Source of the DNA: an uncultured Eubacteriales bacterium
GTDB taxonomy: Bacteria > Bacillota > Clostridia > Lachnospirales > Lachnospiraceae
DNA length: 37,610 nt
Direction: 5' to 3'
Assembly (NCBI GenBank): GCA_900316755.1
Contig: ONED01000040.1
Span: 1-37,610, forward strand
The stretch's first letter is position 1. Each line of letters opens with the position of its first letter. Positions 11,296 to 37,610 of this stretch are shown here, piece after piece. The notes beneath the pieces were generated by a model. That model made no database searches, was not told the origin of the DNA, and was given only the letters and a program-made list of their open reading frames with translations. Position numbers and translations under genes: made by a program.

Positions 11296-11406
11296 AAAAT
11301 CCGTTTAAAAAAATAAATTAAAAATTTTAGTTCTAAAACTCACATTCCATTCATACATTAACTAATGAATGAAAAGTACAATTCAGAGGAAGGAGATTTT
11401 AAATTC

Positions 11407-12036
11407 ATGTCAGATAAGATTATTGAAAACAATCAAGTAACAATTATAGGAGAAGTCGCGTCGGAATTTACATTCAGCCATGAGGTATTCGGAGAAGGAT
11501 TTTATATGGTAGATGTGCTGGTAAAGAGACTCAGCAATTCAGATGACCGGATACCGCTTATGATTTCGGAACGTCTCATTGATGTACATCAGGATTATAC
11601 CGGGGAGTATATTATGGCAACCGGACAATTCCGCTCGTACAATCAGCACGAGGAAAAGAAAAACAGGCTGGTACTGTCGGTGTTTGTGCGAGAAGTCTCT
11701 TTTGTGGAAGAAGAGCTGGATGGCGCAAAGACAAATACGATTTTGCTGGACGGTTATATTTGCAAGCGCCCCATCTACCGGAAGACTCCGCTTGGAAGGG
11801 AAATTGCGGATTTGCTCCTTGCGGTAAACAGACCTTATGGAAAATCAGACTACATACCTTGCATCTGCTGGGGACGCAATGCAAGATTTGCTTCGGGCTT
11901 TGAGGTAGGGGAGCATGTTCAGGTGCTTGGACGCATTCAAAGCAGGGAATATGTAAAGAAACTGACGGAAACCGAGACGGAAAAACGTACCGCATATGAG
12001 GTATCTGTCAGTAAATTAGAGTGCGTCGTACATTGA
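11407..12036 (+). CDS. SSB-like protein with OB-fold domains
   Basis: This 209-aa protein has an N-terminal OB-like half (NNQVTIIGEVASEFTFSHE to about residue 95) and a C-terminal half more like single-stranded DNA-binding protein (TILLDGYICKRPIYRKTPLGREIADLLLAV, then IPCICWGRNA and GEHVQVLGRIQSREY). It lacks the acidic DDDIPF-like tail of canonical SSB. ATG 11365 could add 14 residues, but GAGGAAGGAG at 11386-11395 favours ATG 11407. It stands between an hpf terminator and a dapA promoter, so it is a single-gene unit. A housekeeping SSB is probably elsewhere. The exact role is unknown; accessory ssDNA binding is inferred. Confidence 0.75.
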   Translation: MSDKIIENNQVTIIGEVASEFTFSHEVFGEGFYMVDVLVKRLSNSDDRIPLMISERLIDVHQDYTGEYIMATGQFRSYNQHEEKKNRLVLSVFVREVSFVEEELDGAKTNTILLDGYICKRPIYRKTPLGREIADLLLAVNRPYGKSDYIPCICWGRNARFASGFEVGEHVQVLGRIQSREYVKKLTETETEKRTAYEVSVSKLECVVH

Positions 12037-23413: not shown

Positions 23414-24301
23414 TTAAGAGATAATAGACCTCTGGTATTCACTGGGGGTCATTTTTGTATATTTCTTAAAACATTTTGAAAAATACTGTGGGGTATCAAA
23501 GCGGAGCAGATTGGAAATCTGTGCAAAGTTATAGTTCCCTTCGCGGATGAGTTTCCTTGCTTCTTTGATTTTTAATCCATTACAGTAGTTTATGATGCCG
23601 CCTGTCTGATAGAGAGAAAAGAGCCCCTTGATGGTGCTTTCGCTTTTGCCCATGGCATTTGCGATAATCGAAATACTGAGCCGTTCATACAGGTTCTGAT
23701 CAATATAGTCCAATATTCTCTTGACCTCTGTCGGAACATTGATGCCGTTGACGCGATAGTTTAGACGGCTTTTTTTGGTGACGGTCTCTTTGTGGCGGTG
23801 CAGTTTGATAAAGAAGATTTCTAATAGATTCTTTACCATCTGCTCACTTCCGAAAGGGGCATCCGGCAGCTTCTCAAGGCGTTGCAGCAGCGGATTGTTT
23901 GGCTCCTCAAGCTGAAAGCAGGAGAGCCCTTCTGCAAACAGCATGGAAAGCAGGGCTTTTTCCTCCGCATCCAGGCGGAAAATCTTCCCATCAAATTGTT
24001 TCATTTCCCGACTTTTACATTCAAAGGTCAGAATACTGACATTGGGTGCGGTGTTTTTATTTCCGGACAGATTATGAAATTCATTGGGCTTGTGAAAGGT
24101 CAGCTCACCGCTTTTAAGGATAAACTGGCTTTTGTCGGCGGTACAGAGCATTTCCCCTTTATCAATATACACCATTTCCCAGAAATCGTGACTTTCGCCT
24201 TCATAATAAAAATCCTTGGAAAGCTCCATGTAGAAAATTGTAATCAGTTTTTCAACCCGGAATACGGATGAAAATCCATGTCTTATAAAATTGTCTTTCA
24301 T
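23414..24301 (-). CDS. AraC-family transcriptional regulator with cupin sensor
   Basis: This 295-aa regulator has an N-terminal cupin-like sensor (FYYEGESHDFWEMVYIDKGEM, then SGELTFHKPNEFHNLSG) and two C-terminal AraC helix-turn-helix motifs (LSISIIANAMGKSESTIKGLF, then FAQISNLLRFDTPQYFSKCFKKY and TPSEYQ). The frame extends 18 codons upstream, but ATG 24301 follows AGGTGATAAT and is preferred. It is divergent from the PIG-L operon and shares a promoter region with it, so it probably activates that operon when a sugar binds the cupin domain. The 3' end overlaps the displaced C-terminal frame of the upstream kinase-like gene by a few bases. Confidence 0.9.
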   Translation of the reverse strand: MKDNFIRHGFSSVFRVEKLITIFYMELSKDFYYEGESHDFWEMVYIDKGEMLCTADKSQFILKSGELTFHKPNEFHNLSGNKNTAPNVSILTFECKSREMKQFDGKIFRLDAEEKALLSMLFAEGLSCFQLEEPNNPLLQRLEKLPDAPFGSEQMVKNLLEIFFIKLHRHKETVTKKSRLNYRVNGINVPTEVKRILDYIDQNLYERLSISIIANAMGKSESTIKGLFSLYQTGGIINYCNGLKIKEARKLIREGNYNFAQISNLLRFDTPQYFSKCFKKYTKMTPSEYQRSIIS

Positions 24302-24331
24302 ATTATCACCTATTCGTCTGATTTTATTAGT

Positions 24332-24360
24332 ATTGTACCCGATTTTACATTCCAATGCAA
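24332..24360 (-). promoter_or_regulatory. Promoter for the AraC-type regulator
   Basis: On the minus strand TTGCAT (24355-24360), a 17-base spacer and TACAAT (24332-24337). It is 31 bases upstream of the start codon and overlaps the likely -35 of the divergent operon. Confidence 0.75.
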
Positions 24361-24391
24361 CCTTAGAAACAGTATAATTTTAATATCTAAG
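24350..24391 (+). promoter_or_regulatory. Promoter and flanking inverted repeat of the PIG-L operon
   Basis: TATAAT (24373-24378) sits 17 bases after a poor -35, TTCCAA (24350-24355), which fits an activator-dependent promoter. CTTAGA (24362-24367) and TCTAAG (24386-24391) flank the -10 as an inverted repeat. The AraC-type protein encoded divergently is the likely regulator. Confidence 0.5.
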
Positions 24392-24412
24392 AAAAAGAAG
24401 GAGGAAACGAGG

Positions 24413-25120
24413 ATGTATACTGTTTTAGTTATTTCCTGTCATCCGGATGACATGGAAATTGCCTGCGCAGGTACGCTTTTAAAGTGTAAGGAGCGGGGAG
24501 ACCGTGTTGTGGTATGTCATCTATCCAGTGGGAATCTGGGACATGAGATTATTCCGCCGGAGGAACTCACCGTAATGCGTGCCAATGAGGCAAAAAGGAG
24601 TGCTGCAATTGGCGGATTTGAGGTCATGCACGGAGGCTTTGATGATTTGGAAATCTATGACAACAATAAAGAATCCAGAGATAAGGTAGTAGATATCATC
24701 AAGCAGGTAGACCCGGATTTTATTATCACCCATTCACCGGACGATTATATGCCGGACCATGTGGCGACTTCTAAGCTGGTGTTTGATGCCTGCTTTACGG
24801 CGACTTTGCCGAACTACCACACAAAAACGGAAGGGCATGCAAGACTGGTTCCGGTGTATTATATGGACACTTTGGCAGGTGTTAATTTTAATCCCACAGA
24901 ATATGTGGATGTGACAGCATTTATTGACAGGAAGCTTGAGATGTTAAACTGCCATGAATCTCAGATTGTCTGGATGCGGGATCATGACCACATAGATTTT
25001 CCGGATATGGTTAAGACTTGCTGCAGATACAGAGGTTTCCAGTGCGGAGCTGATTATGCCGAAGGATTCCGGCAATGTCAGGTATATTTAAAGGGCACAA
25101 CAAAACGGATGTTGCCATAA
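24413..25120 (+). CDS. PIG-L family N-deacetylase (LmbE-like)
   Basis: This 235-aa zinc-dependent deacetylase has the family motif [15 protein letters not shown] (His12, Asp14, Asp15 region), [17 protein letters not shown] in the middle and a C-terminal segment rich in aromatic and acidic residues. Family members remove acetyl groups from N-acetylglucosamine units of small molecules or lipids; BshB acts on a sugar malate. ATG 24413 follows GAAGGAGGAAACGAGG; the frame upstream is longer but untranslated by this criterion. As first gene of an operon with a NagB-like isomerase, sugar kinase and aldolase, it probably deacetylates an N-acetylamino sugar. Bacillithiol synthesis is less likely because no bshA or bshC is adjacent. 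Confidence 0.88.
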
Positions 25121-25143
25121 AGAAAGAGAGGAGAAGAAAGAAT

Positions 25144-26091
25144 ATGGATTTTAATTCAACAGTAAAAGGATCAGCGTTAGAGGGTTTCTATCCGGCAGGA
25201 TGGGATTTTGAAAAAATAGATGGATGTATTGATGAACCGGAAACAGTTTGTGACCGTCAGGACTTCTGGAATCCGGAGTTTACCCCGGTATCCTGTAGGA
25301 CACTGGGAGAGTTTGAAACGTATATGGGACATGAGATTGCCATGCAGATTAAGCTGGCGAAGGAACGCAACGAAAAAATTGCATTTATTTTGCCGGTGGG
25401 ACCAATGGGAATGTACAAATGGGTGGTATATTTTCTGACTGAGTGGAAAGTTGCCTGTGACCATGTGTACACATTCAACATGGATGAATGGGCAGACGGA
25501 GAAGGAAATACGCTTCCTTCCGACAATCCGGGGGCATTCCAGTATGCAATGGAACAGGCACTTTTTAATCCATTAGGGGAATTGACCGTTCCGAAGGAAC
25601 AGAGAAATTTTGCAACAAAAGACAATCTTCCGACTTATCCGGAAAAGATTGCGGCACTGAAAGCAGAGGGGGCAAAACTGGTACTGGTATATGGTATCGG
25701 AAGAATGTGTCATATTGCATTCTGGGAACCGACCTTTGCAGCAGATTATGCTACCGAAGAGGAGTGGAGAGCGCAACCTTACCGCATCGGAGCAAAGATT
25801 CATCCATTGACCGTAGAGCAGAATGCATTGACCAGCTTTAAATCCCGCACACCATTGGTTCCATGCAGAGCAAACACGATTGGACCGGGTCTTTTCCTAC
25901 AGGCGGATTATGCTATTGGTGGGGCAGATGGAACCTTGGGTCGTGGCATGCAATGGCAGGGACTGTCGCTTTGGATGACTTTAAGACACGGCACCACCCC
26001 GTGGATTACGTCTTCTTACATACCGACTTTGGCAGGAAAGTTGTTCTTCTTGGAAGAATTAGCAGGTCCATTGGTAGCGGAGTGCAATTAG
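25144..26091 (+). CDS. Glucosamine-6-phosphate deaminase/isomerase-like protein (NagB superfamily, divergent)
   Basis: This 315-aa protein is longer than NagB (about 266) and shares the sugar-phosphate-isomerase fold. FNMDEW (111-116) matches the FNMDEY motif that holds the catalytic Asp72 of NagB. The second motif, normally GxGxDGHIAFNEP, reads [13 protein letters not shown] (184-196). The His and Glu stay, but the Asp of the NagB triad is Met188. This argues against ordinary glucosamine-6-phosphate deamination and suggests a related ketose or amino-sugar isomerisation. RBS GAGAGGAGAAG precedes ATG 25144. It lies 23 bases after the deacetylase and four before the kinase. Confidence 0.78.
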
Positions 26092-26095
26092 ATTT

Positions 26096-27076
26096 ATGGA
26101 AGAAAAACAGAAAAAGGGGATTGTGGTTGCCGGAAGTGTACTGGTTGACAAAATTAATGAAATCAGGGCATATCCGCAGAGTGGTGAGTTAACACAGATT
26201 GTTCATTTGGAAAAGGCAGTGGGTGGATGTGTGCCAAACGTGGCGCTGGATTTGAAGAAGATTTGTCCGGACATGGAAGTGAAGGCGATTGGAAAAATCG
26301 GGAAAGATGAAGAGGGTGTCTATGTATCCGGAGTGTTAGAGCAGGAAGGTGTAGATATCAGTGGACTCGTCCTCATGGAAGGGGAAAAAACAAGTTTTAC
26401 GGAGGTTATGAGTGTTTTAAATGGACAGCGTACCTTCTTTACTTACGCAGGAGCAAGCGCGGACTTTGGCTTTGAAGATGTGAAGTTTGAGCAGATACAT
26501 CCCAAAATGCTCCATCTGGGATACTTTTTACTCTTGGAAAAGGTGGATAATGGCGATGGTCGACGGATTCTGGAGGAAGCAAAAAAGCGGGGAATCAGGA
26601 CATCCATCGATTTGGTTAGTGAAAATTCTGACCGCTACGCATTGGTACTGCCCTGCATCCCCTACACAGACTATCTCATTGTCAATGAGATAGAAGCAGG
26701 GAAACTTACCGGAATCGAACCGATAGATGAAAACTTAGAGAAAATCGCACACAGGCTCATGGATATGGGCGTGAAAGAAAAGGTAATCATTCACAAGCCG
26801 GACAGGTCTGTGTGCCTTTCGAAAGAACAGTATACGGTGGTGGGCTCTTATATTCTTCCGGATGGGTACATTAAAGGAACGACCGGTGCGGGAGATGCAT
26901 TCTGTGCAGGTTCCCTGTTTGGAATCTATCAGGGATGGCGGGATCAGGAAATTCTGGAATTTGCTTCTGCCTGTGCGGTCATGGCTCTCGGAAGTGCAGA
27001 TGCGACCAGTGGTCTTGTAAAAGAACAGGATGTGAAAGCATATTGTAAAAAATTTTACAGAAGAAAGGAGAACTAG
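26096..27076 (+). CDS. PfkB-family carbohydrate kinase
   Basis: This 326-aa ribokinase-superfamily protein has the substrate-side GG motif (GGCVPN, 43-48) and the ATP-site signature GTTGAGDAFCAG (261-272) with catalytic base Asp267. PfkB enzymes phosphorylate sugars such as fructose, tagatose-6-phosphate, KDG or adenosine. Here a ketose or ketose-phosphate substrate is expected, because an aldolase follows immediately. The start lies four bases after the isomerase stop with only a weak GGAG upstream, so translation is probably coupled. Substrate identity cannot be read from sequence. Confidence 0.92.
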   Translation: MEEKQKKGIVVAGSVLVDKINEIRAYPQSGELTQIVHLEKAVGGCVPNVALDLKKICPDMEVKAIGKIGKDEEGVYVSGVLEQEGVDISGLVLMEGEKTSFTEVMSVLNGQRTFFTYAGASADFGFEDVKFEQIHPKMLHLGYFLLLEKVDNGDGRRILEEAKKRGIRTSIDLVSENSDRYALVLPCIPYTDYLIVNEIEAGKLTGIEPIDENLEKIAHRLMDMGVKEKVIIHKPDRSVCLSKEQYTVVGSYILPDGYIKGTTGAGDAFCAGSLFGIYQGWRDQEILEFASACAVMALGSADATSGLVKEQDVKAYCKKFYRRKEN

Positions 27077-27079
27077 AAA

Positions 27080-28009
27080 ATGTTAGTAACCATGAATGAA
27101 GTGCTGAAAGATGCAAAAAAAGGGCATTATGCGGTAGGATTGTTTAATGCGGTGACATTGGAATTGGCTCAGGGAATTATTGCGGCGGCAGAAGAAACGG
27201 GTTCACCGGTGATTTTTGGAACGGCAGAGGTATTACTCCCATACAATTCTCTGGAAGATTTGGCTATGATTCTGATTCCGATGGCAAGACGTGCAAAGGT
27301 CCCGGTTGTGGTACACCTGGATCATGGGTTGCATAAGGAAACATGTCTCAAGGCATTGGAACTTGGCTTTTCTTCCATTATGTACGATTGTTCTTTGGAT
27401 AGTTATGAGGAAAATTGCAGGAAAGTGAAGGAGATGGCAGATATTGCCCACTCCTATGGTGCTTCTATCGAAGGGGAAATCGGACACGTAGGGGGTGCAG
27501 AGGGTGCAGCTACGGCCGAGCAGCAGGATGATGCCTCAAAGTACTATACGACACCGGAGGAAGCAAAAGATTTTGTGGATAAGACAGGCGTAGATGCACT
27601 GGCGATTGCAGTGGGAACAGCACATGGTGCCTACAAATTGCCACCGAAGCTGGACTTCGAGCGTATTCGAAAAATCGCGGCAACCGTGGACACACCACTG
27701 GTACTGCATGGCGGTTCCGGATTGACTGATGAGGATTTCCGAAAAGCAATCGAAGCGGGGATTTCCAAGGTTAATATTTTTACGGACATCAATGTGTCTG
27801 CGGTGGAAGCAGCACTTAGTCACTTCACAGAGATGAATAAGGGAATCATTGATTTACTTCCTTCTGTTCGCAATGCAGTAAAGAAATCTGTAATGGAGAA
27901 AATGCGTCTGTTTGGATGCTATGAGAAAGGTGGAACCTCAAAACATACATACACAGATGCATTGGTGAGAAAAGTAGTAGAAGAAGTTCTGCGGGAGCTT
28001 GGAAAATAA
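27080..28009 (+). CDS. Class II fructose/tagatose-bisphosphate-type aldolase
   Basis: This 309-aa zinc-dependent aldolase has VHLDHG (78-83, with catalytic Asp81 and zinc His82), MYDCSLDSYEEN, EGEIGHVGG (131-139), AVGTAHGAYK and LHGGSGL, all expected in class II ketose-bisphosphate aldolases (FbaA/GatY/KbaY). It would cleave a ketose-1,6-bisphosphate to dihydroxyacetone phosphate and an aldehyde. Its start is only three bases after the kinase stop, and RBS AAAGGAG overlaps the kinase end. It closes the operon and is followed by a good hairpin. Tagatose specificity is possible but not provable here. Confidence 0.93.
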   Translation: MLVTMNEVLKDAKKGHYAVGLFNAVTLELAQGIIAAAEETGSPVIFGTAEVLLPYNSLEDLAMILIPMARRAKVPVVVHLDHGLHKETCLKALELGFSSIMYDCSLDSYEENCRKVKEMADIAHSYGASIEGEIGHVGGAEGAATAEQQDDASKYYTTPEEAKDFVDKTGVDALAIAVGTAHGAYKLPPKLDFERIRKIAATVDTPLVLHGGSGLTDEDFRKAIEAGISKVNIFTDINVSAVEAALSHFTEMNKGIIDLLPSVRNAVKKSVMEKMRLFGCYEKGGTSKHTYTDALVRKVVEEVLRELGK

Positions 28010-28030
28010 AATGATGCAGTAAACAATGAT

Positions 28031-28069
28031 GGGAGACTATTGTGAAAACAGTAGTCTCCCGTTCGTTTA
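28031..28069 (+). terminator. Terminator of the PIG-L-aldolase operon
   Basis: GGGAGACTATTGT (28031-28043) pairs with ACAGTAGTCTCCC (28048-28060) across a GAAA tetraloop with one G-U pair. The following tract is GTTCGTTT, so it is a strong hairpin with a weak U tail. Confidence 0.75.
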
Positions 28070-28111
28070 CGAAGAAATATACGAGTTTGTCAAGTGAAGT
28101 GAGAAACTAAC

Positions 28112-28708
28112 TTATAAGACAGAAAAATCGGGCATATATTTCCGGTCATCTTTGGAAGAAAGCGGGCGGATGACTCTGCACGGATTACCTCCGGCAACCA
28201 CCTTTGGTGGAATATCGCCCACAACAACACTTCCGGCGGCGATGATAGAACCATCCCCGATGCTGGCACCTGATACAATGGCAACATGACCGCCAATCCA
28301 TACATCATTTCCAATGCGAATCGGCAGTGCATATTCAATACCGGCTGCACGTCGTTCTATGTCAAAGGCGTGACCTGCACCATAGATACCACAGTTTGGT
28401 CCGATAAATACATTGTCTCCGATGGTGACTTCGTTTCCGGCTAAGAGAACCAGATTATAGTTGGCAAAAAAGTTTTCGCCAATGCTCACTCTGTTCCAAA
28501 AATCACACTGAAACGGGGTTTCAATACAAAAATGATCTCCGGTCTTTTTAAATTCCCGTCGAATCATTTCCTTGCGTTCCTTGGTCTGTGAGGGACGGAG
28601 TTGATTGTATGTAAAACTTAATTCTTGACTGCGTTTTCTTTCTCGGCACAGACTCTCCTCCCGTGCATCGTAAAGGTAGCCGGCCAGGGCTTTTTCTTCT
28701 TCGGTCAT
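28112..28708 (-). CDS. Maltose/galactoside O-acetyltransferase-like enzyme (left-handed beta-helix)
   Basis: This 198-aa acyltransferase of the Maa/LacA group has an N-terminal Mac domain (ALAGYLYDAREESL) and hexapeptide repeats (NYNLVLLAGNEVTIGDNVFIGPNCGIYGAGHA, VWIGGHVAIVSGASIGDGSIIAAGSVV). It ends with PCRVIRPL. The catalytic His is in GAGHAFD. It transfers acetyl from acetyl-CoA to a sugar hydroxyl, often for detoxification. ATG 28708 follows AGGAGAGA; an upstream in-frame extension overlaps the creatininase gene and is rejected. It is the last gene of the ASRT operon, 14 bases after the creatininase gene. Confidence 0.9.
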   Translation of the reverse strand: MTEEEKALAGYLYDAREESLCRERKRSQELSFTYNQLRPSQTKERKEMIRREFKKTGDHFCIETPFQCDFWNRVSIGENFFANYNLVLLAGNEVTIGDNVFIGPNCGIYGAGHAFDIERRAAGIEYALPIRIGNDVWIGGHVAIVSGASIGDGSIIAAGSVVVGDIPPKVVAGGNPCRVIRPLSSKDDRKYMPDFSVL

Positions 28709-28722
28709 GTTAAAAATCTCTC

Positions 28723-29460
28723 CTACTGAATTATTTCCTGTAACGCTTCCAGCGTGCACCGCACCATATGTTGTCCAAGTTCCATGCTGGTTTCCTTTGC
28801 ACTTTCTGCGAACCATTCTGTATTATCTTTTGTTCTTTCCAAGTCCACATGATCCGGATAAAGCGCATACATCAGACTGGATTCGTATTTACCCGCATGG
28901 TCAAATCCACCACATTTGTGCTGCGCATCGGCACTGATTAACGGAATAACCTTGATATAGGAAAATGGGTCATCACCGCTGCCGAGACTCTCATAATAGT
29001 CAGCGTAATCGTTGCTTCCCCACCAGCCCTTGCCTCGGGTATCTTCCATGTATTCCATGATGACCTTCTTTGCTGCTTTGTGGCAGGCAAGGGTCATGGG
29101 CATGAGACCCGCTTCCTCTGTCTGATGGTGGGCTACACAGTAAATGTTTTTATTACCTCCATAAATCATGGATTTCAATATGCAATAAATGTACTGCTCG
29201 TAGGCATCCACATCTACATGAATCGTACCGCTTTCCGGTCCGGCAACAGCGTAACTTGCAACGCCATACCAGATAGGAGGGCAGACTACAATCTCTTTCG
29301 TCTTTTCCAACTCCCGCATGATTCCGTTAATGACCATCGTATCTGTGCCACAGCTCGCATGCCGTGCGTGATATTCGATGGTACCGATTGGAATGATAAA
29401 TGGTACCCTGCGCTTTTTTGCATCCTCCAGTTCTTGGAAGAACATATCTACCATCTGCAT
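28723..29460 (-). CDS. Creatininase-family amidohydrolase, divergent
   Basis: This 245-aa metal-dependent hydrolase belongs to the creatininase/MftE family. Creatininase itself opens the creatinine ring. IPIGTIEYHARHASCGTDT keeps the first metal ligands as E29, H31 and D40 with canonical spacing. The second motif, usually NGHxxN-like with a His and a Glu ligand, is A-H-H-Q-T-E (110-115), so the Glu appears replaced. The start at 29460 has GGGAGGGG upstream. It lies between a creatinase-like gene and an acetyltransferase gene, on one minus-strand operon. Substrate is uncertain. Lactone- or cyclic-amide-opening relatives are known in sugar catabolism. Confidence 0.83.
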   Translation of the reverse strand: MQMVDMFFQELEDAKKRRVPFIIPIGTIEYHARHASCGTDTMVINGIMRELEKTKEIVVCPPIWYGVASYAVAGPESGTIHVDVDAYEQYIYCILKSMIYGGNKNIYCVAHHQTEEAGLMPMTLACHKAAKKVIMEYMEDTRGKGWWGSNDYADYYESLGSGDDPFSYIKVIPLISADAQHKCGGFDHAGKYESSLMYALYPDHVDLERTKDNTEWFAESAKETSMELGQHMVRCTLEALQEIIQ

Positions 29461-29501
29461 AATTTTCCCCTCCCGTGTTTTCTGCAAAATCAATATTGTT
29501 G

Positions 29502-30680
29502 TTAAAACTCCAATTCATACAAAGTGCCAATTTCAGGTGAAAGGATGTCGCAACCTGTTTCCGTTACGGCAATACCCTTTTCCCAACGTACACCAAATGT
29601 ATCCGTAGAGATAAAAGTATCGACTTGGTATGTCATATTTGGCTGTAATTTGTATTCGGAAGAAGTCTCTACCCATGGAGCTTCCACCTCAATCATGCCG
29701 GTTCCATGAAGCGGTCCGTACACGAAGTTGTCTTTGTATCCGTTATCTACATAGTATTTGTAGAAGTTCTTTGCAATATCAGAAGCCTCCACACCGGCTC
29801 TGACCTGCTTTACCGTCCAGTTGTGAGCTTCTAAACCAAATAATACCACATCACGGCGTCTTCCTTCAAGTTTTCCCAACACAATCGGGTATCCGATTGC
29901 AGCAGAATAACCGTCGATTTTTGCAGAAAGATTTAATTGCACAATATCTCCCTTTTCGAATTTGCGGTAGCCGGATCGGGAGATAGCATGGCGCGTAGAG
30001 GCTTCTGAAAATACATACATAGGAAGACCTTCGTATTCAGCGCCTTGTTCGTATACCACGCGTTCTGCGACCCCTACCATTTGAAGTTCTGTCATACCGG
30101 GTTTGATTTCTTTGATGACCTGTTGGCTTGCCAGCTCCGCAATGCGGTATCCTTCTCTCAAACAGTTGATTTCATTTGCGGATTTAATCTTGCGGAGCTC
30201 CACCATGATGTGGTCTGCGCGTACGATTTCTGCTTCCGGGAAAGCTTCTTTAATGGCTTCCATAATGATAACGGAAGTGTCAAGATAGCTGGCAACACCA
30301 ATTCTCAATTTCTTTCCCTTGATGCCAAGTGCATTGAATACATCTTGATAGGTATCTGCCTGTAATTCCGGGTATGCAGGGTCTGCACCCTCTCGGTAGG
30401 CCTTTAATACGAATACTTTATCCAGTCGAGAGCGGTCTGCGCCAAATTCCTTGCTTTCCGGTCCTACCATAAGTGCTGCATCTCCGGTGGGAGAAATGGC
30501 TACGCCACAACGTTCAAATAATGGCCAGTAACCCGAAAAATATCTGGCATTGGCATAATCAGATTCGTTTGAATTGACAATCAGTGCGTCTAAGCCTTCT
30601 TTTACCAGAATCTTAGCTGCGCGTTTTACTCTTTCTTTGTATTCCGAATCCGGAATATATACTTTTCCGTGTTCTAACAT
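29502..30680 (-). CDS. Creatinase-like M24 pita-bread protein lacking metal ligands
   Basis: This 392-aa protein has a creatinase N-terminal domain (about 15-155) and an M24 catalytic domain (about 170-390). Metallopeptidase M24 members bind metal through two Asp, a His and two Glu. Here the sites read LN (N250), AA (260-261), H325, D354 and E367, so most ligands are gone. His231 (STRHAIS) occupies the place of creatinase His232, and KGDIVQLN resembles the creatinase strand. This suggests a metal-free creatine-amidinohydrolase-like enzyme rather than Xaa-Pro peptidase. The start has AGGAGGAAATTAAA upstream. It lies 12 bases after the ASRT gene and 41 before the creatininase gene. Confidence 0.82.
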   Translation of the reverse strand: MLEHGKVYIPDSEYKERVKRAAKILVKEGLDALIVNSNESDYANARYFSGYWPLFERCGVAISPTGDAALMVGPESKEFGADRSRLDKVFVLKAYREGADPAYPELQADTYQDVFNALGIKGKKLRIGVASYLDTSVIIMEAIKEAFPEAEIVRADHIMVELRKIKSANEINCLREGYRIAELASQQVIKEIKPGMTELQMVGVAERVVYEQGAEYEGLPMYVFSEASTRHAISRSGYRKFEKGDIVQLNLSAKIDGYSAAIGYPIVLGKLEGRRRDVVLFGLEAHNWTVKQVRAGVEASDIAKNFYKYYVDNGYKDNFVYGPLHGTGMIEVEAPWVETSSEYKLQPNMTYQVDTFISTDTFGVRWEKGIAVTETGCDILSPEIGTLYELEF

Positions 30681-30692
30681 TTTAATTTCCTC

Positions 30693-31064
30693 CTAATCTT
30701 GCTTGCTGGTACAATATCCCGGTGTTGTGTAGAATGCCACTGTTCGTGGTTCTGCACGTCCATACTGTGCAATGACAGGTTCATCACTTTCTAACATAAT
30801 AGCGTATTGTTCTCCTGTGACAGCGGTGTGGGAACCAAAATCTTTCTCCTCATTTGTACGAAGACAACGGACGCGTCTGGCTCCAACAGTAATACCCGGA
30901 ATAGTTACAGAGTCTTTGTCTGTATATAGTAGTGTGATTGTTATATGTGCATCCACGTCACCAGTATTAGTAATAATGATGGATTCATGACCCGGAATAC
31001 AGTTTACGCCCATCGGGGGTAACTCTGCATCAGGGAAGATCCATATTTTTTCCCCGTAGCTCAT
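30693..31064 (-). CDS. Sensory rhodopsin transducer (ASRT)-domain protein
   Basis: This 123-aa soluble beta-sandwich protein matches the Anabaena sensory rhodopsin transducer family (PF07100). The conserved features are GHESIIITNTGDVDAHITI, LLYTDKDSV, VGARRVRCLRTNE and SDEPVIAQYGRAEPR. In cyanobacteria it binds sensory rhodopsin. Most homologues occur without any rhodopsin and are suspected to bind carbohydrate or other small molecules. No rhodopsin gene is here. It is first in a four-gene minus-strand operon with its own near-consensus promoter, so a metabolic or ligand-sensing role is more likely than light sensing. Confidence 0.85.
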   Translation of the reverse strand: MSYGEKIWIFPDAELPPMGVNCIPGHESIIITNTGDVDAHITITLLYTDKDSVTIPGITVGARRVRCLRTNEEKDFGSHTAVTGEQYAIMLESDEPVIAQYGRAEPRTVAFYTTPGYCTSKQD

Positions 31065-31164: not shown

Positions 31165-31177
31165 TTAAAACGTTTAA
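31165..31177. promoter_or_regulatory. Candidate LacI-type operator (TTAAAACGTTTAA)
   Basis: The CG-centred core AAACGTTT (31168-31175) is shared with a site at 33543-33550. It lies between the divergent ASRT and LacI-fusion promoters, a usual place for a LacI-family operator. It misses the CcpA consensus at several positions. Confidence 0.5.
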
Positions 31178-31186
31178 CTTTACCTG

Positions 31187-31244: not shown

Positions 31245-33494
31245 ATGGCTACCATAAAAGATGTTGCAAGGGAAGCAGGTGTTTCTATTGCAACTGTTTC
31301 AAATTATTTGAATCGTACAAAACCGGTGAGTAAAGAGGCGTCTAAGGAAATTCAAGCAGCAATTGAAAAACTGCAGTATTCTCACAATATGATTGCCAGA
31401 AATTTCAGAACAAAGCAAAATATGGATATCGGAGTAATTTTGCCGGACTTCAGTGATTCTTATTATGTTCAATTATTTCAGGGAATCAAATCATATTTTC
31501 AAAATTCGGATTATTATATCAACCTGGAATTTTCCAGAAATATTCCAGAGTTTGAAAAGAATATAGCAAACAATTTTTTAAAAAGACAAATATGCGGTTT
31601 GATATTGGTGTCTTGCCAGCCGGATAACTGGAAGTTTTATTATGATAATTTTACTTCCAGAAATATTCCACTTGTGTTGATTGACCGGAATATTCATGGT
31701 CTGGATGCAAATTATGTGTCGTTCAATAATTACACACTAATGAAAAATATGGTTACCCGTCTGTTAGAAGAGGGACACAGGGAAATTTGTCTTGTGTCCG
31801 GACCCGAAAAATATTCCTGTGAGGCAGAATGTGTGCAGGGATTTCAAAATGCTTATCAGGAAAATGGTATGGTGGCAGAGAATTCTATGGTGGTAAAAAC
31901 CGACATGAGCAAAGAGGATGCGTTCCGTAAAACAATTAATTTATTGAAGAGTAAAAGACCGGAAGTGATTGTAACCACATCAGAATCACTTGCCAGTGGT
32001 ATTATTGAAGGAATGACAATATTAGGCTATAGCATAGAGAATATTCCTGTTATTACGCTTAGTGAGGAACGTTGGAATAGTCATACACACTCTTTTGCCT
32101 CACGTTCTGTGGTAAGGACAGTTATTAAGCTGGGACAGACAGCTTCACGTATTTTGGAAAAGCAATTGCTGTCCCCTTTGACCAAGGAAACGGAACGCAT
32201 TGAATTGAGTGAATATCGTGAAAGCAAGGAATATGTACCAACAGAATTGGAAGAGAAGAAGATCCTTGGAAAAACAGCAAAAATAAGGCTTCTCATGTTA
32301 GATACTCCACAGGTAGAAGCAATGATGAGGCTCGTTAAAAATTTTGAGAACCGGACCGGCATCACTGTAGAAGCAACAACGTTGCCGCATCACTATATAT
32401 ACGAGGCTATTATAGAAAATTATCGGAGTGACGAAACTGCTCCATATGATATTTTCATGTATGATATGCCGTGGCTTCCCTCTTTGGCTGCCGGGCATAT
32501 TCTAAAGGATATCACAAAGGAGGTGGAGCCGCTTCGGAATATTTTTTTTCCGAAATGTCTGGAATATTTTGGTGGATTTCAGGGGAAATATTATGGTCTG
32601 CCGTTTATGTATGCGCCACAGATTCTATACTATCAGAAGGATTTGTTTGAAGATCCGGCTTTAAAGGCTGAGTATGAGAGCGTGAGCAGCATATCCTTGC
32701 GCCCGCCTGTCACTTTAAAAGAGTTTAATACCATTGCAGACTTTTTTACATATAAGACGGATGCCATTAAATACGGGATATCCATTCCGGCAGCTTATAG
32801 CGAATGCCTGGCACCGGAGATTCACATGCGACTTCGAGCTTTTGGAGGAAAGGTGTTTGATGCACGGGGGAAAGTATGTCTGGATTCCGAGCAGACACTG
32901 AAAGCATATATTAATTTCATGCGTTCCGTAAAATGTGCAAAACCGGATTATAGAAAAACGACAGATAATAGTGCTGTGCAGGAGTTCATGGCAGGTGAGA
33001 CCGCAATGCTGATTTCTTATCCTTCATTCCTCACCGATATCACAGATCTGCGGAAGAACAGCATTATCGGTTCCATTGGATATCATATGATTCCGGGACG
33101 CGCGCCTCTGTTGGGCGGATGGGGTCTGGGTATTAACAACCGTTCTGAAAAAAAGAAGGAAGCCATCGAATTTTTGAAATGGACCTGCGATGAGCAGGTT
33201 GCCAATTATTCCACTCTGCTGGGCGGACAGTCCGCCATTACCAGTGCTTATACCAATGATGCATTGGTGGACTTATATCCGTGGCTGCCGTTGTATCATT
33301 CCATATGTCAATATACGGAACCCACGTTGCCGCCGACTCTTTCCAACGGCAGAGTCATCCCGCAGTATGAGATTGATGATGTTATCTGCAAGTGGATTTA
33401 TAAATTGATGGAGACGGAGATTCAGGTCATGGAGGCAATCAAAAACACGCACCAGGAGTTAGAGGGGCTGGCGGAGAAGTATCTGAAGAGCTGA
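31245..33494 (+). CDS. LacI-family regulator fused to an ABC-type solute-binding domain
   Basis: This 749-aa protein starts with a LacI helix-turn-helix (MATIKDVAREAGVSIATVSN) and hinge helix. A LacI/ribose-binding sensor domain (about 58-325) follows. The C-terminal 400 residues (from about 340) match a type-1 extracellular solute-binding protein (ENRTGITVEATTLPHH, DIFMYDMPWLPSLAAGHI, FQGKYYGLPFMYAPQILYYQKDLF). There is no signal peptide or membrane segment, so both binding domains must act in the cytoplasm. The gene is visibly more AT-rich in its 5' half than the core genes. RBS AAGGAGTAGG precedes it. It probably controls the adjacent operon and the downstream genes. Confidence 0.85.
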   Translation: MATIKDVAREAGVSIATVSNYLNRTKPVSKEASKEIQAAIEKLQYSHNMIARNFRTKQNMDIGVILPDFSDSYYVQLFQGIKSYFQNSDYYINLEFSRNIPEFEKNIANNFLKRQICGLILVSCQPDNWKFYYDNFTSRNIPLVLIDRNIHGLDANYVSFNNYTLMKNMVTRLLEEGHREICLVSGPEKYSCEAECVQGFQNAYQENGMVAENSMVVKTDMSKEDAFRKTINLLKSKRPEVIVTTSESLASGIIEGMTILGYSIENIPVITLSEERWNSHTHSFASRSVVRTVIKLGQTASRILEKQLLSPLTKETERIELSEYRESKEYVPTELEEKKILGKTAKIRLLMLDTPQVEAMMRLVKNFENRTGITVEATTLPHHYIYEAIIENYRSDETAPYDIFMYDMPWLPSLAAGHILKDITKEVEPLRNIFFPKCLEYFGGFQGKYYGLPFMYAPQILYYQKDLFEDPALKAEYESVSSISLRPPVTLKEFNTIADFFTYKTDAIKYGISIPAAYSECLAPEIHMRLRAFGGKVFDARGKVCLDSEQTLKAYINFMRSVKCAKPDYRKTTDNSAVQEFMAGETAMLISYPSFLTDITDLRKNSIIGSIGYHMIPGRAPLLGGWGLGINNRSEKKKEAIEFLKWTCDEQVANYSTLLGGQSAITSAYTNDALVDLYPWLPLYHSICQYTEPTLPPTLSNGRVIPQYEIDDVICKWIYKLMETEIQVMEAIKNTHQELEGLAEKYLKS

Positions 33495-33672: not shown

Positions 33673-34077
33673 ATGAATGGGATTAAATTTGAGGGGATAC
33701 TGCCCGCACTTATTACTACGCTTAGAGAGGATAATAAGTCTGTAAACGAAACATCGGTTAGAAAGCTTGTGGAGCTTCATATGGTAAGAAAGCTGGTGGC
33801 TCTCCGCAAGAGTTTAGATGCTTTGGGGAGTGATGGCAAAGTTGATTTTTTAAATCGGGAGAGTCGCGGCTATCCGCTGGTCTATTCAAGAACCGATGGG
33901 GTGGAAACTTATCTGATGTGCATGAATCCAAGTGCGCAGACACAAACGGTTGATTTGAAAAAAATTGACGGAAAAGATAGACAATATCAGGGGGTGCTTC
34001 AGAATAAAGAAGTAGTGTTTGAACACGGAGTGCTTACTTTGCCGGGAGTGAGTTTCTGGATTGGAAAGGATGTATGA
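33673..34077 (+). pseudogene. Chimeric remnant: DapA/NanA-family N-terminus joined to GH13 glucosidase C-terminus
   Basis: This 134-codon open frame encodes two unrelated pieces. Residues 1-36 (GIKFEGILPALITTLREDNK, then VRKLVELHM) match the start of a dihydrodipicolinate synthase/N-acetylneuraminate lyase-type aldolase. From about residue 37 it becomes the C-terminal end of a GH13 alpha-glucosidase-type enzyme (VRKLVALRKSLDALG, RGYPLVYSRTDGVE, MNPSAQTQTV). Neither has a catalytic domain. Two 17-bp near-direct repeats (33756-33772 and 33783-33799, 15/17 identical) flank the junction. An internal deletion fusing two genes is the simplest reading. A promoter, an RBS (GAAAGGAAG) and the ATGA overlap with the next gene remain. 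Confidence 0.75.
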
Positions 34078-36266
34078 GGATGAAGACGAATATGAGTACC
34101 TTACCTATAGTATCTGATATAGAAGCAATTACATACGATTATTTTCCAACTGCATGGCAGGCTGTTGTCTGGCGTAACTGGGGCTATGTCCCGGTGGAAA
34201 GAATCGCCGAAGCACTTGGTACCTGCCCTGAGAATATCAGAGCAGCGGCTAAAGAGCTAGGTTTGAATCCGGAAGAACCGGTCAATGAGGCGTGGAAAAA
34301 ACGCGGATTTTTGACTTTGATTCGCGATAACTGGCATCTGTGTACCTATGAACAGATTATGACGTTATTGAATTTGTCCGAGGAAACTTTGGCTTTCATT
34401 TTAAAAGAGGACGATTTCATGTGGATTAAACTGGGCGGGATGAAGCCCGATGTAGAAGCACCGCACTATGCGCCTCTGACAGAGGAAGAGAGGCAAAGGA
34501 CAGAACAGATTGCGGAGCTTTTTGCAAGACGTTTTCCGGTAGGAGAGGGAGCCCGTGACAATGCATTTGCGTTCGTGGAGGAATTTCAAAGACCCTTGTC
34601 GGAAAAAGAGGTTTTGGAAGGAACGAATTTTGCAGATACAGACGGCATTCGTATGATTTATCCTTATTTTGCGTTATACGGCGATACTTTGATTGATGAA
34701 AGTATTGACCCGTTTCCGGAGCGTCTGCTTCGTGATTATGCAAGGGCAGGTGTGAATGGAATCTGGATGCAGGGTGTACTTTATCAACTGGTGGAATTCC
34801 CTTTTGATCCATCCCTGTCAAAGGGATGGGAGAAGCGAATCCATTCCTTGAAAAAGTTGGTAGAAAAAGCGAAGAAGTTCGGAATTGGTGTGTATCTGTA
34901 TCTGAATGAACCTCGGGCCATGTCAGAAGCGTTTTTTCAGAAGTATCCGTACCTTCAAGGTGAGAGGGAAGGGGATTTTTATGCCATGTGCACTTCCACG
35001 CAGAAGGTTCAGGATTATCTATACCGGAGCATGAAGAAGCTCTTTACCATGGTTCCGGAACTGGCGGGATTTTTCACGATTACCATGTCAGAAAATCTGA
35101 CCAATTGTTATTCCAGATTGTTTGGAGAGATGAAATGTCCCCGCTGCAAAGAACGGAAACCGTGGGAAGTGATTGCAGAGGTGAATAATCTTATGGCAAA
35201 GGGTGCCCATGATGCCGCACCCGATGCAAAGGCGATTGCGTGGACATGGGGTTGGGCAGATGACTGGGCGGAGAAGGTGGTTCCGCTACTTACGGAAGGC
35301 CAGATTCTGCAGTGTACCAGTGAAGAAGCAATGCGGTTTTGTATTGGTGGTGTGGAAGGAAGGGTGCTGGATTATACCATGTCTCTTTGCGGACCGGGTG
35401 AAAAGACGCGGAAAATGTGGAAGACTGCCGGGAAATGTGGCATGCAGATGTCTGCCAAGGTTCAGATTAACGATACATGGGAGATGGCAACGGTTCCGTA
35501 TATCCCGGTATTTGATAAGGTGGCGGAGCATACCCGTAATCTGAAGAAACAGGGAATCCGTCATCTGCAGGTGAGCTGGACTCTGGGCGGGTGTCCCAGT
35601 CCCAATTTGCGGCTGGCGGCGTGGCTGATGGAAGAGAAGGGAACGGTACAGGAGTTTTTAACAGACTGGCTGGGCAGAGACGCAGGTGAGGCTGTCTTTG
35701 AAGCACAAAAGAAGCTGAGTCAGGCATTTTCTCATTTTCCGTTCCATATTGATTCTTTGTATTATGGTCCACAGAATTATGGGCCGATGGCTCCGTTCTT
35801 TTTAAAAGCCACCGGGTATCATGCCAGCATGGTTGGCTTTCCCTATGATGATTTGGAACGCTGGAGCGGCATTTATCCGACGAATGTGTATGAGGACGAA
35901 TACCGTCAATTGTGCGATGGCTGGCGGGAAGGTCTGGAACTTTTGATGCGGTACGAAGGGTATGACAAGGAGCTGGATGAAGTGATTCTTATGGCAAAAG
36001 TGATTCTTTGTCAATATGAAAGTGCGTATCATCATATCCGGTTTGTCAATTGCCGGGGGACGATGTCGGAAGAACTGTTATTCATTATTCGCGAGGAAAT
36101 GGAAACAGTGCAGAAGATGATTCAGCTACGGCTTGTGGATTCCCGGGTGGGATTTGAATCCAGCAACCATTATTTTTATACGCTACAGGATTTGCGGGAG
36201 AAAATGATTAATCTTGCGTTTTGTGAGACTTACTTATATCATGAGCTTTATCAAACAAAATCATGA
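34074..36266 (+). CDS. Uncharacterised 730-aa protein with a glycosidase-like TIM-barrel region
   Basis: I do not recognise a named family. The N-terminal 120 residues hold two similar units (WRNWGYVPVERIAEALGT... and IRDNWHLCTYEQIMTLLNL...EDDF), each with a helix-turn-helix-like helical pair. The central part (about 180-450) reads like a glycoside hydrolase barrel: RDYARAGVNGIWMQGVLYQL, FGIGVYLYLNEPRAM, FFTITMSENLTNCY, a C-P-R-C pair and AIAWTWGWADDW. The C-terminal 250 residues are helical. No signal peptide is seen, so it is cytoplasmic. It overlaps the remnant upstream (ATGA) and shares its promoter. Carbohydrate processing is inferred only. Confidence 0.65.
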   Translation: MRMKTNMSTLPIVSDIEAITYDYFPTAWQAVVWRNWGYVPVERIAEALGTCPENIRAAAKELGLNPEEPVNEAWKKRGFLTLIRDNWHLCTYEQIMTLLNLSEETLAFILKEDDFMWIKLGGMKPDVEAPHYAPLTEEERQRTEQIAELFARRFPVGEGARDNAFAFVEEFQRPLSEKEVLEGTNFADTDGIRMIYPYFALYGDTLIDESIDPFPERLLRDYARAGVNGIWMQGVLYQLVEFPFDPSLSKGWEKRIHSLKKLVEKAKKFGIGVYLYLNEPRAMSEAFFQKYPYLQGEREGDFYAMCTSTQKVQDYLYRSMKKLFTMVPELAGFFTITMSENLTNCYSRLFGEMKCPRCKERKPWEVIAEVNNLMAKGAHDAAPDAKAIAWTWGWADDWAEKVVPLLTEGQILQCTSEEAMRFCIGGVEGRVLDYTMSLCGPGEKTRKMWKTAGKCGMQMSAKVQINDTWEMATVPYIPVFDKVAEHTRNLKKQGIRHLQVSWTLGGCPSPNLRLAAWLMEEKGTVQEFLTDWLGRDAGEAVFEAQKKLSQAFSHFPFHIDSLYYGPQNYGPMAPFFLKATGYHASMVGFPYDDLERWSGIYPTNVYEDEYRQLCDGWREGLELLMRYEGYDKELDEVILMAKVILCQYESAYHHIRFVNCRGTMSEELLFIIREEMETVQKMIQLRLVDSRVGFESSNHYFYTLQDLREKMINLAFCETYLYHELYQTKS

Positions 36267-36366: not shown

Positions 36367-37610
36367 ATGGGGAGAAACGTAGCCATCGGTATACAGAACT
36401 TTAGTGAGCTTATTGAAAAAAATTACTTTTATGTAGATAAGACCGCCTTCATCAAGGAATGGTGGGATAGCGGGGACAGTGTGACACTGATTACCAGACC
36501 GAGGCGGTTTGGAAAGACGCTGAATATGAGTATGGTGGAGCAGTTCTTTTCGCTGGAATATGCAGGACGGGGAGATTTGTTTGAAGGACTTGCTATCTGG
36601 GAAGATGAGGAGTATCGGAAGATACAGGGGATCTATCCGGTGATTAGTCTTTCCTTTGCCAATGTGAAAGAACGCACCTATGTACAGACCAGGGAGCGCA
36701 TTTACCAAATTCTTGCAGATTTGTATAATAAATATCACTTTTTGCTGGATAGTGACATTATGACGGCTCAGGAGAAGGAGTATTTTCTGAGTGTGCGTCC
36801 GGATATGCCGGAAACAGTTGCGACTTTCTCTCTGCATAAGCTTTCTGACTTTTTGCACCGGTACTACGGAAAGAAAGCCATCATTCTTTTAGATGAGTAT
36901 GATACGCCCATGCAGGAAGCTTATGTAGACGGATTTTGGGATGATTTGGTGGGATTTACCAGAAGCCTTTTTAACTCTACCTTTAAGACGAATCCATACC
37001 TTGACAGAGCGATTATGACCGGGATTACCAGGGTAAGTAAGGAATCCATCTTTTCTGATTTGAATAATCTGAAAGTGGTGACTACCACATCAGATGAATA
37101 TGCGACTTCCTTTGGATTCACGGAGGAAGAGGTATTTGCTGCACTGGAGGAATGTAATCTTGCCGGAGAAAAGGAAGAAGTGAAGCGATGGTACGACGGA
37201 TTTATCTTTGGAACACATAAAGATATTTATAATCCGTGGTCCATTTTGAATTTTATAGACACAGGAAGCTTTAGCACTTACTGGGCCAATACCAGTGCAA
37301 ATAGTCTGGTAGGGAAGCTCTTGCGGGAGGGTGACCGGAGAATTAAGGAGAAATTTGAAATACTGATAGAAGGCGGCGTAATACAATCTCCCATTGATGA
37401 ACAGATTGTGTACAATCAACTGCGGGGTGGAGAGGGTCCTATCTGGAGTCTTCTGCTTGCAAGTGGGTATTTGAAAGTGCTGTCTTACGAAAGTATCCTG
37501 GAGTCTTCCAATCCAAAGTATACGCTGACACTGACCAATTGGGAAGTGAGATTGATGTTCCAAAACATGATACGGAACTGGTTTATGGATGCCGAGGGAG
37601 ATTATAATGA
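36367..37610 (+). CDS. AAA-ATPase-like protein (PF09820 family), truncated by the window end
   Basis: The reading frame stays open to the last base, giving the first 414 residues. It begins MGRNVAIGIQNFSELIEKNYFYVDK-like and has a Walker A-type motif RPRRFGKT (about 49-56), a Walker B LLDEYDTPM (about 177), MTGITRVSKESIFSDLNN and WYDGFIFG. These are the usual features of the AAA-ATPase-like family that normally ends in a DUF1703 PD-(D/E)XK nuclease-like domain, which lies beyond the window. Such genes often occur in many copies in Lachnospiraceae and Bacteroidales genomes. Their function is unknown; a mobile or defence role has been suspected. ATG 36367 follows TTGGAGGTG. Confidence 0.88.
   Translation, partial: MGRNVAIGIQNFSELIEKNYFYVDKTAFIKEWWDSGDSVTLITRPRRFGKTLNMSMVEQFFSLEYAGRGDLFEGLAIWEDEEYRKIQGIYPVISLSFANVKERTYVQTRERIYQILADLYNKYHFLLDSDIMTAQEKEYFLSVRPDMPETVATFSLHKLSDFLHRYYGKKAIILLDEYDTPMQEAYVDGFWDDLVGFTRSLFNSTFKTNPYLDRAIMTGITRVSKESIFSDLNNLKVVTTTSDEYATSFGFTEEEVFAALEECNLAGEKEEVKRWYDGFIFGTHKDIYNPWSILNFIDTGSFSTYWANTSANSLVGKLLREGDRRIKEKFEILIEGGVIQSPIDEQIVYNQLRGGEGPIWSLLLASGYLKVLSYESILESSNPKYTLTLTNWEVRLMFQNMIRNWFMDAEGDYN

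Follow-up and report, generated by a model that had tools for sequence, protein, structure and literature searches.

Stand-alone intracellular proteins of the ASRT (ASRAH) family were proposed in 2009 to be sugar sensors, and in the neighborhoods described in the main text of that paper their genes adjoin those of sugar isomerases, aldolases, kinases or monosaccharide transporters of the ATP-binding cassette (ABC) type (PMC2739507). An ASRT gene also heads the four-gene operon at positions 28112–31064 (minus strand) of the stretch analyzed here, the 37,610 nucleotides of contig ONED01000040.1 from an uncultured Eubacteriales bacterium (hereafter the window), where it is followed by genes for a protein with the M24 (creatinase/prolidase) fold, a creatininase-family hydrolase and a Mac/hexapeptide sugar O-acetyltransferase-like protein. 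Other systems to which this locus can be compared are creatinase and creatininase, whose folds are like those of the two middle proteins; the M24-fold ectoine hydrolase DoeA/EutD, which pairs with a deacetylase, a second hydrolase of another family, for a small nitrogen-containing compound; and IolN, the 3-dehydro-scyllo-inosose hydrolase, a creatininase-family member that acts in carbohydrate breakdown. To our knowledge, no ASRT ligand has been shown since 2009. The gene set resembles the previously described neighborhoods in that ASRT stands beside sugar genes; the main text of that paper contains no word beginning with creatinin, peptidase or acetyltransferase (PMC2739507). No description of the gene set, nor of ASRT joined with a creatininase, was found in the open-licence literature, covered mainly through titles and abstracts, and publication elsewhere is possible. 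Here, we describe these genes as a conserved module and consider the chances about even that it breaks down a modified, probably amide-bearing sugar.

The four-gene set named in the preliminary description of the window was borne out by four tightly spaced open reading frames (ORFs) on the minus strand, whose families could be assigned by Pfam profiles. The ASRT gene (30693–31064, 123 amino acids, likely start 31064) and the M24 gene (29502–30680, 392 amino acids, likely start 30680) precede the creatininase-family gene, an ORF of 28723–29493 with its most likely ATG at 29460 (28723–29460, 245 amino acids), and the acetyltransferase-like gene, an ORF of 28112–28816 with its most likely ATG at 28708 (28112–28708). 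Read by eye, as were the likely starts, the intergenic gaps are 12, 41 and 14 nucleotides in this order, and purine-rich, ribosome-binding-like stretches lie upstream of the starts.

The association of ASRT and hydrolase genes, on whose conservation the preliminary description had staked its claim, held up when GTDB contigs were scanned with no query but the M24 alignment: among the best 80 of 317 relatives, 60 had an ASRT gene and 59 a creatininase-family gene within 5 kb, 44 had both, 25 had a gene for a rhamnose-mutarotase-like protein (RhaM) and 14 an acetyltransferase gene. A second set, centred on ASRT genes, comprised 60 stretches chosen non-randomly, namely 59 of the 119 places in family and class genomes outside the window (28 of 29 family and 31 of 90 class places, weak-scoring ones being favoured) plus one from the genus; 17 of these stretches carried an M24 gene of the window's type (58% identity or more), and 13 the creatininase-family gene too. 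In 391 genomes of the class, with two fragment rows and listed M24 rows below 88 bits excluded, ASRT lay within 5 kb of 25 of the 31 M24 genes of type I (440 bits or more), 1 of 12 intermediate ones, 9 of 13 of a second type (type II) and 2 of 38 ordinary ones, both of the latter being partial matches on type II proteins. Of the 31 creatininase-family matches listed, 27 were close (370 bits or more), and a comparison by eye placed 24 of these 27 next to a type I M24 gene, in one case on the opposite strand. Merging the 80 loci with 17 from the ASRT-centred set gave 97, of which 82 remained after removal of 8 judged from their contig coordinates to be duplicates and 7 whose M24 gene had been lost by the gene caller. 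In these 82 loci, all 58 ASRT genes and all 56 creatininase-family genes shared the strand of the M24 gene, the median gap between ASRT and M24 was 36 nucleotides, and the order of the module varied, with ten patterns of gene content and order. Over the 38 loci that have all three genes, the proteins diverged together (r of 0.67–0.87 against permutation maxima of 0.32–0.42). The M24 type occurs in Lachnospiraceae, Oscillospiraceae, a metagenome-assembled genome (MAG) of Christensenella, Treponema and other Spirochaetes, Paenibacillus and Cohnella, as well as on one short Bacteroidales MAG contig. ASRT was found within 5 kb of it in Treponema (locus L158), Spirochaetia (L145), Paenibacillus (L198), Cohnella (L197) and Bacteroidales (L194); the ASRT–M24 pair thus reaches Spirochaetes and Paenibacillaceae. 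All four genes are present in a cultured relative, Muricomes intestini DSM 29489 (L128). The module is real and widespread.

The ASRT protein of the window passes the curated profile PF07100 (75.9 bits, cut-off 25) and matches the PDB structures 2ii7 (E 1.6e-13) and 1nc7 (E 1.8e-8). ASRT genes are uncommon, being present in 2 of 10 genomes of the genus, 19 of 397 of the family and 71 of 391 of the class. In a Thermotoga ASRT, the His and Cys of the pocket signature SHEshChhN contact ethanediol, according to the main text of De Souza, Iyer and Aravind (2009; PMC2739507). Unlike that signature, the module's ASRTs have Gly in place of the first Ser and lack the Cys, while His, Glu and Asn are kept (GHESIIITN in the window), and this GHE form was displayed by all 58 ASRTs of the 82 M24 loci. 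Among 59 ASRTs from the 60 fetched loci, 39 were GHE without Cys and 20 were SHE-type, 18 of the latter with Cys; an M24 gene of the module's kind lay within 5 kb of 35 of the 39 GHE-class ASRTs, as compared to none of the 20 SHE-type ones. Moreover, acetyltransferase and ASRT form one protein in two genomes, with an N-terminal maltose-acetyltransferase and a C-terminal ASRT part (L084, 8189–9166, and L086, 8233–9228; minus strand). Taken together, the tracking of M24 by the pocket class and this fusion suggest that the GHE class is itself a part of the enzyme system, with a ligand other than the one bound by the SHE class. The separate acetyltransferase of the window agrees with the profiles PF12464 (Mac, 43.3) and PF00132 (Hexapep), whereas its scores against the maltose and galactoside O-acetyltransferase equivalogs (162.8 of 314 and 182.3 of 347) stayed below their cut-offs. 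A rhodopsin (PF01036) was not matched in the window's genome, which is 96.7% complete, but the control genomes gave no match either, and the ASRT protein is thus only putatively rhodopsin-free.

The M24 protein matches PF00557 (95.1) and PF01321 (creatinase-N, 46.7). For its predicted model (pLDDT 91), Foldseek ranked prolidase first, creatinase tenth and ectoine hydrolase DoeA 35th, with a TM score of 0.81 to the creatinases 7yto_B and 1chm_A; the M24 fold is treated in PMC4108388. Aligned to the prolidase-like structure 2zsg, the window protein has N250, A261, H325, D354 and E367 at the positions of the metal-binding Asp, Asp, His, Glu and Glu, and the ligand set of M24 metallopeptidases is therefore incomplete. 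All 41 type I sequences have N250 and either Ala or Ser at position 261, so that both metal Asp are lost throughout, and both are likewise gone in all 20 aligned type II sequences. A peptidase acting in an operon for the use of amino acids or peptides linked to sugars would agree with prolidases being the best matches in fold and sequence, with the M20 ArgE/DapE-type deacylase gene adjoining the module in L075 and with oligopeptide-transporter-looking genes seen by eye in L083, but the loss of the two Asp in both M24 types speaks against it, and we regard this explanation as improbable. An M24 protein that is no enzyme at all, serving ASRT instead as a partner in binding or regulation, would explain why the metal ligands are largely lost and why the ASRT pocket class tracks M24. 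However, H325, E331, E333, R365 and E367 never vary, be it among the 41 type I rows or the 21 rows of the type II alignment, which suggests catalysis or tight binding, and we give this possibility equally little credence; P335 is also common to both types.

With creatinase the protein shares an M24 fold whose metal ligands are largely lost. Its identity to creatinase is 19%, prolidases being nearer; the metal site is dismantled, and no sign was seen in the comparison that its substrate site is that of creatinase. A mapping to the N-terminal substrate residues of creatinase was given up, as a search with the N-domain returned prolidases and one unrelated chain and hence no creatinase to align; for the same reason, a likeness of creatinase Phe62/Arg64 to F55-E56-R57 is not claimed. 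Against the ectoine hydrolase model the protein scored 62.6 bits, the cut-off being 613, and the context here is one of sugar genes.

The creatininase-family protein passes the superfamily profile PF02633 (105 bits, cut-off 31.3) and has creatininase structures among its PDB matches, and its predicted model (pLDDT 87.5) has a TM score of 0.70 to creatininase. Its scores against the named models stayed below their cut-offs: 63.9 bits of 235 for creatininase itself (TIGR04448), 55.8 of 245 for IolN (NF041098), the second-best of them, and 42.5 of 172 for MftE (TIGR03964). The equivalents of creatininase E34, H36, D45, H120 and H178 are conserved; in the ligand columns, E29, H31 and D40 are kept in 26 of 26 sequences and H111 in 25 of 26. 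We take E34, H36, D45, H120 and E122 to be the metal ligands of creatininase, their positions coming from the PDB alignment, and Glu122 is replaced by Gln (Q113) in all 26 sequences, so that the full set is not retained. Both the M24 and the creatininase-family protein thus depart from the norm of their families, and neither was classed here as a creatinase or creatininase.

The creatinine or creatine pathway raised in the preliminary description, in which the creatininase-family enzyme would open creatinine and the M24 protein would split creatine to sarcosine and urea, was accordingly not supported. Although the two proteins are folded like creatininase and creatinase and their genes lie together in the 59 loci mentioned above, the TIGR04448 score, the uniform Gln for Glu122, the closeness of the M24 protein to prolidases and the mostly sugar-related annotated neighbors make this route highly improbable; no sarcosine or urea genes were recognized among the annotated recurrent neighbors, some clusters being unannotated. 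The rank of IolN among the named models would rather fit a pathway in which a cyclic ketone, lactone or cyclitol is hydrolyzed or isomerized as by IolN in inositol breakdown, with no nitrogen involved, as would the PTE-family proteins that 3 of the 18 type II loci contain. We consider this unlikely, although less so than the peptidase explanation, since the IolN score is far from its cut-off and the alternatives in the place of the creatininase gene include PF01522 proteins, mostly deacetylases as far as known.

The creatininase-family gene is missing from view in 27 of the 82 type I loci. A PF01522 gene is present in 6 of those 27, and PF01522 proteins occur in 7 of the 82 loci altogether, only one of which also has the creatininase gene. 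Type II modules combine a GHE ASRT with the second M24 type, likewise without the metal Asp, and an M81 (MlrC-like) protein (L063–L068, L071, L082, L085, L087 and L093), the M81 neighbor being found in 11 of the 18 type II loci. Known members of PF01522 are mostly deacetylases, and the PTE family includes lactonases. The presence of different families of mostly metal-dependent hydrolases beside ASRT and M24 suggests that creatininase, PF01522, M81 and PTE proteins are several solutions to one hydrolytic step, and outside Bacillota other metal hydrolases may take the place of the creatininase-family gene.

The recurrent neighbors in the 82 loci, named for most clusters from one annotated representative, were ATPases (RbsA-like, 31 loci), binding proteins (RbsB-like, 25) and permeases (RbsC-like, 23) of ribose-type ABC transporters, regulators of the AraC (26) and LacI (25) families, RhaM (19), acetyltransferase (14), GH20b-domain (8), AllA-like (7) and PF01522 (7) proteins. 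Rhamnose RhaS was the best model for the one binding protein tested (113 bits, cut-off 342). The hexosaminidase match of the GH20b-domain protein of L187 is confined to its N-terminal part, and that of L088 was matched by Pfam GH20b alone. Sugar genes were present within 6 kb in 47 of the 82 loci and absent in 35, some contigs being short. The window's genome has one RhaM gene, on another contig (C64; L213, 5318–7438, minus strand), beside genes presumably for DUF4867-like and amidohydrolase-like proteins; this set is similar to genes that accompany the module in L083.

In Bacillota and Spirochaetes, as well as on the one Bacteroidales contig, a GHE ASRT is thus kept with an M24 protein that lacks the usual metal site, often together with sugar genes, and in Bacillota the creatininase-family gene is usually the third member. 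Of the two interpretations offered in the preliminary description, the modified sugar fits these neighborhoods best, while the creatinine route was not supported. We propose that a sugar or glycoside would enter via a ribose/rhamnose-type ABC transporter, whose genes many relatives carry alongside the module, and that a mutarotase (RhaM or DUF4432 type) would present one form of the sugar. The ASRT protein, a beta-sandwich with a pocket, might then bind the sugar or a derivative and deliver it to, or tune, the M24 enzyme, which may cleave a C–N or comparable bond with no pair of metal ions, in the manner presumed for creatinase and ectoine hydrolase. The creatininase-family enzyme would hydrolyze an amide or ring bond using its remaining metal site, and the acetyltransferase probably acetylates surplus or intermediate sugar. 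Several observations weigh against this proposal. The loci are related and their counts therefore not independent: at 85% M24 identity they form 28 clusters, of which 20 have ASRT, 17 the creatininase gene and 11 both. Ancestry alone could also give the correlated divergence, as the permutations do not keep relatedness. Neither partner accompanies M24 in 7 of the 82 loci, and 24 are without ASRT. Among the best 80 of 317 relatives, no creatininase gene turned up next to M24 in the loci of Spirochaetes, Paenibacillaceae and Bacteroidales; the gene was seen in Bacillota records only, though not in Paenibacillus or Cohnella. The 35 loci without nearby sugar genes, an RbsA count that may include other ABC ATPases, and the window's own operon, which is without transporter, glycosidase and mutarotase genes, add to this, and the loss of metal ligands is equally consistent with a non-catalytic M24 protein.

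Divergently from the operon, at 31245–33494 on the plus strand, lies a gene for a 749-amino-acid protein in which LacI DNA-binding and sensor domains are fused to an ABC solute-binding domain (PF00356, PF00532, PF13416 and PF01547). This regulator would sense the sugar and control the operon from the AAACGTTT site. The same architecture is found in L126, and homologues of similar length occur in other loci; one literature search gave no description of it, and no second fusion was found in the window's genome, where the sole other match was to the LacI half (27%). The divergent intergenic region contains the operator-like palindrome TTAAAACGTTTAACTT (31165–31180, plus strand), and of 12 related loci, 11 likewise have an AACGTT-centred site upstream of the regulator gene, a conservation that, given their relatedness, is partly ancestry. 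The window site is the sole perfect match of the degenerate operator pattern in its genome. A wider regulon was rejected: two matches with one mismatch were found as compared to four of the reversed control pattern, and both were taken as chance, one lying inside a ptsI-looking gene and the other between genes without evident link. We infer that the four genes share one promoter. A promoter-like site (TTGACC-17-TACAAT, 31133–31105, minus strand, 10 of 12 consensus positions) lies 40 nucleotides before the ASRT start, but it is weak on its own since the scanned region has 12 such sites against 8.2 (sd 2.5) expected. Downstream, a hairpin at 28005–28075 (−23.7 kcal/mol, z −6.8) separates the operon from a convergent aldolase gene and is a possible two-way terminator, although it went unflagged in the terminator scan.

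The aldolase gene belongs to a plus-strand set at 24278–28009, convergent with the ASRT operon, that encodes a PIG-L deacetylase, a NagB-like protein, a PfkB kinase and a class II aldolase and represents a possible amino-sugar pathway; as a conserved companion of the module it was rejected, with isolated matches only in the loci examined. Elsewhere in the window, the region 33673–36266 encodes a 134-amino-acid protein with a maltogenic-amylase C-terminal domain alone, which overlaps by 4 nucleotides the gene of a 730-amino-acid protein without Pfam match. A predicted AAA-ATPase-like gene (PF09820) at 36367–37608 runs off the contig end, and at 11365–12036 a 223-amino-acid protein has a single-strand-binding domain confined to its C-terminal half.

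Annotating the M24 and creatininase-family genes of such loci as peptidase and creatininase would, as our results suggest, mislead. In many genomes, one particular pocket class of ASRT goes with one specific partner protein, and in two it is fused to an acetyltransferase-like protein. More tentatively, and with clearly less than even confidence, the GHE ASRT may be a subunit dedicated to ligand delivery or allosteric control in a new class of metal-free M24 enzymes acting on a sugar derivative; unrelated metal hydrolases (creatininase, PF01522, M81 and PTE families) would then share one slot of the pathway. With a defined ASRT–M24 pair, a regulator whose candidate operator is located, and cultured species that can be used, the question of the ASRT ligand becomes directly testable. 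If ASRT indeed is such a subunit, a protein that partnered an enzyme would have been co-opted late for the rhodopsin-transducer role known from Anabaena.

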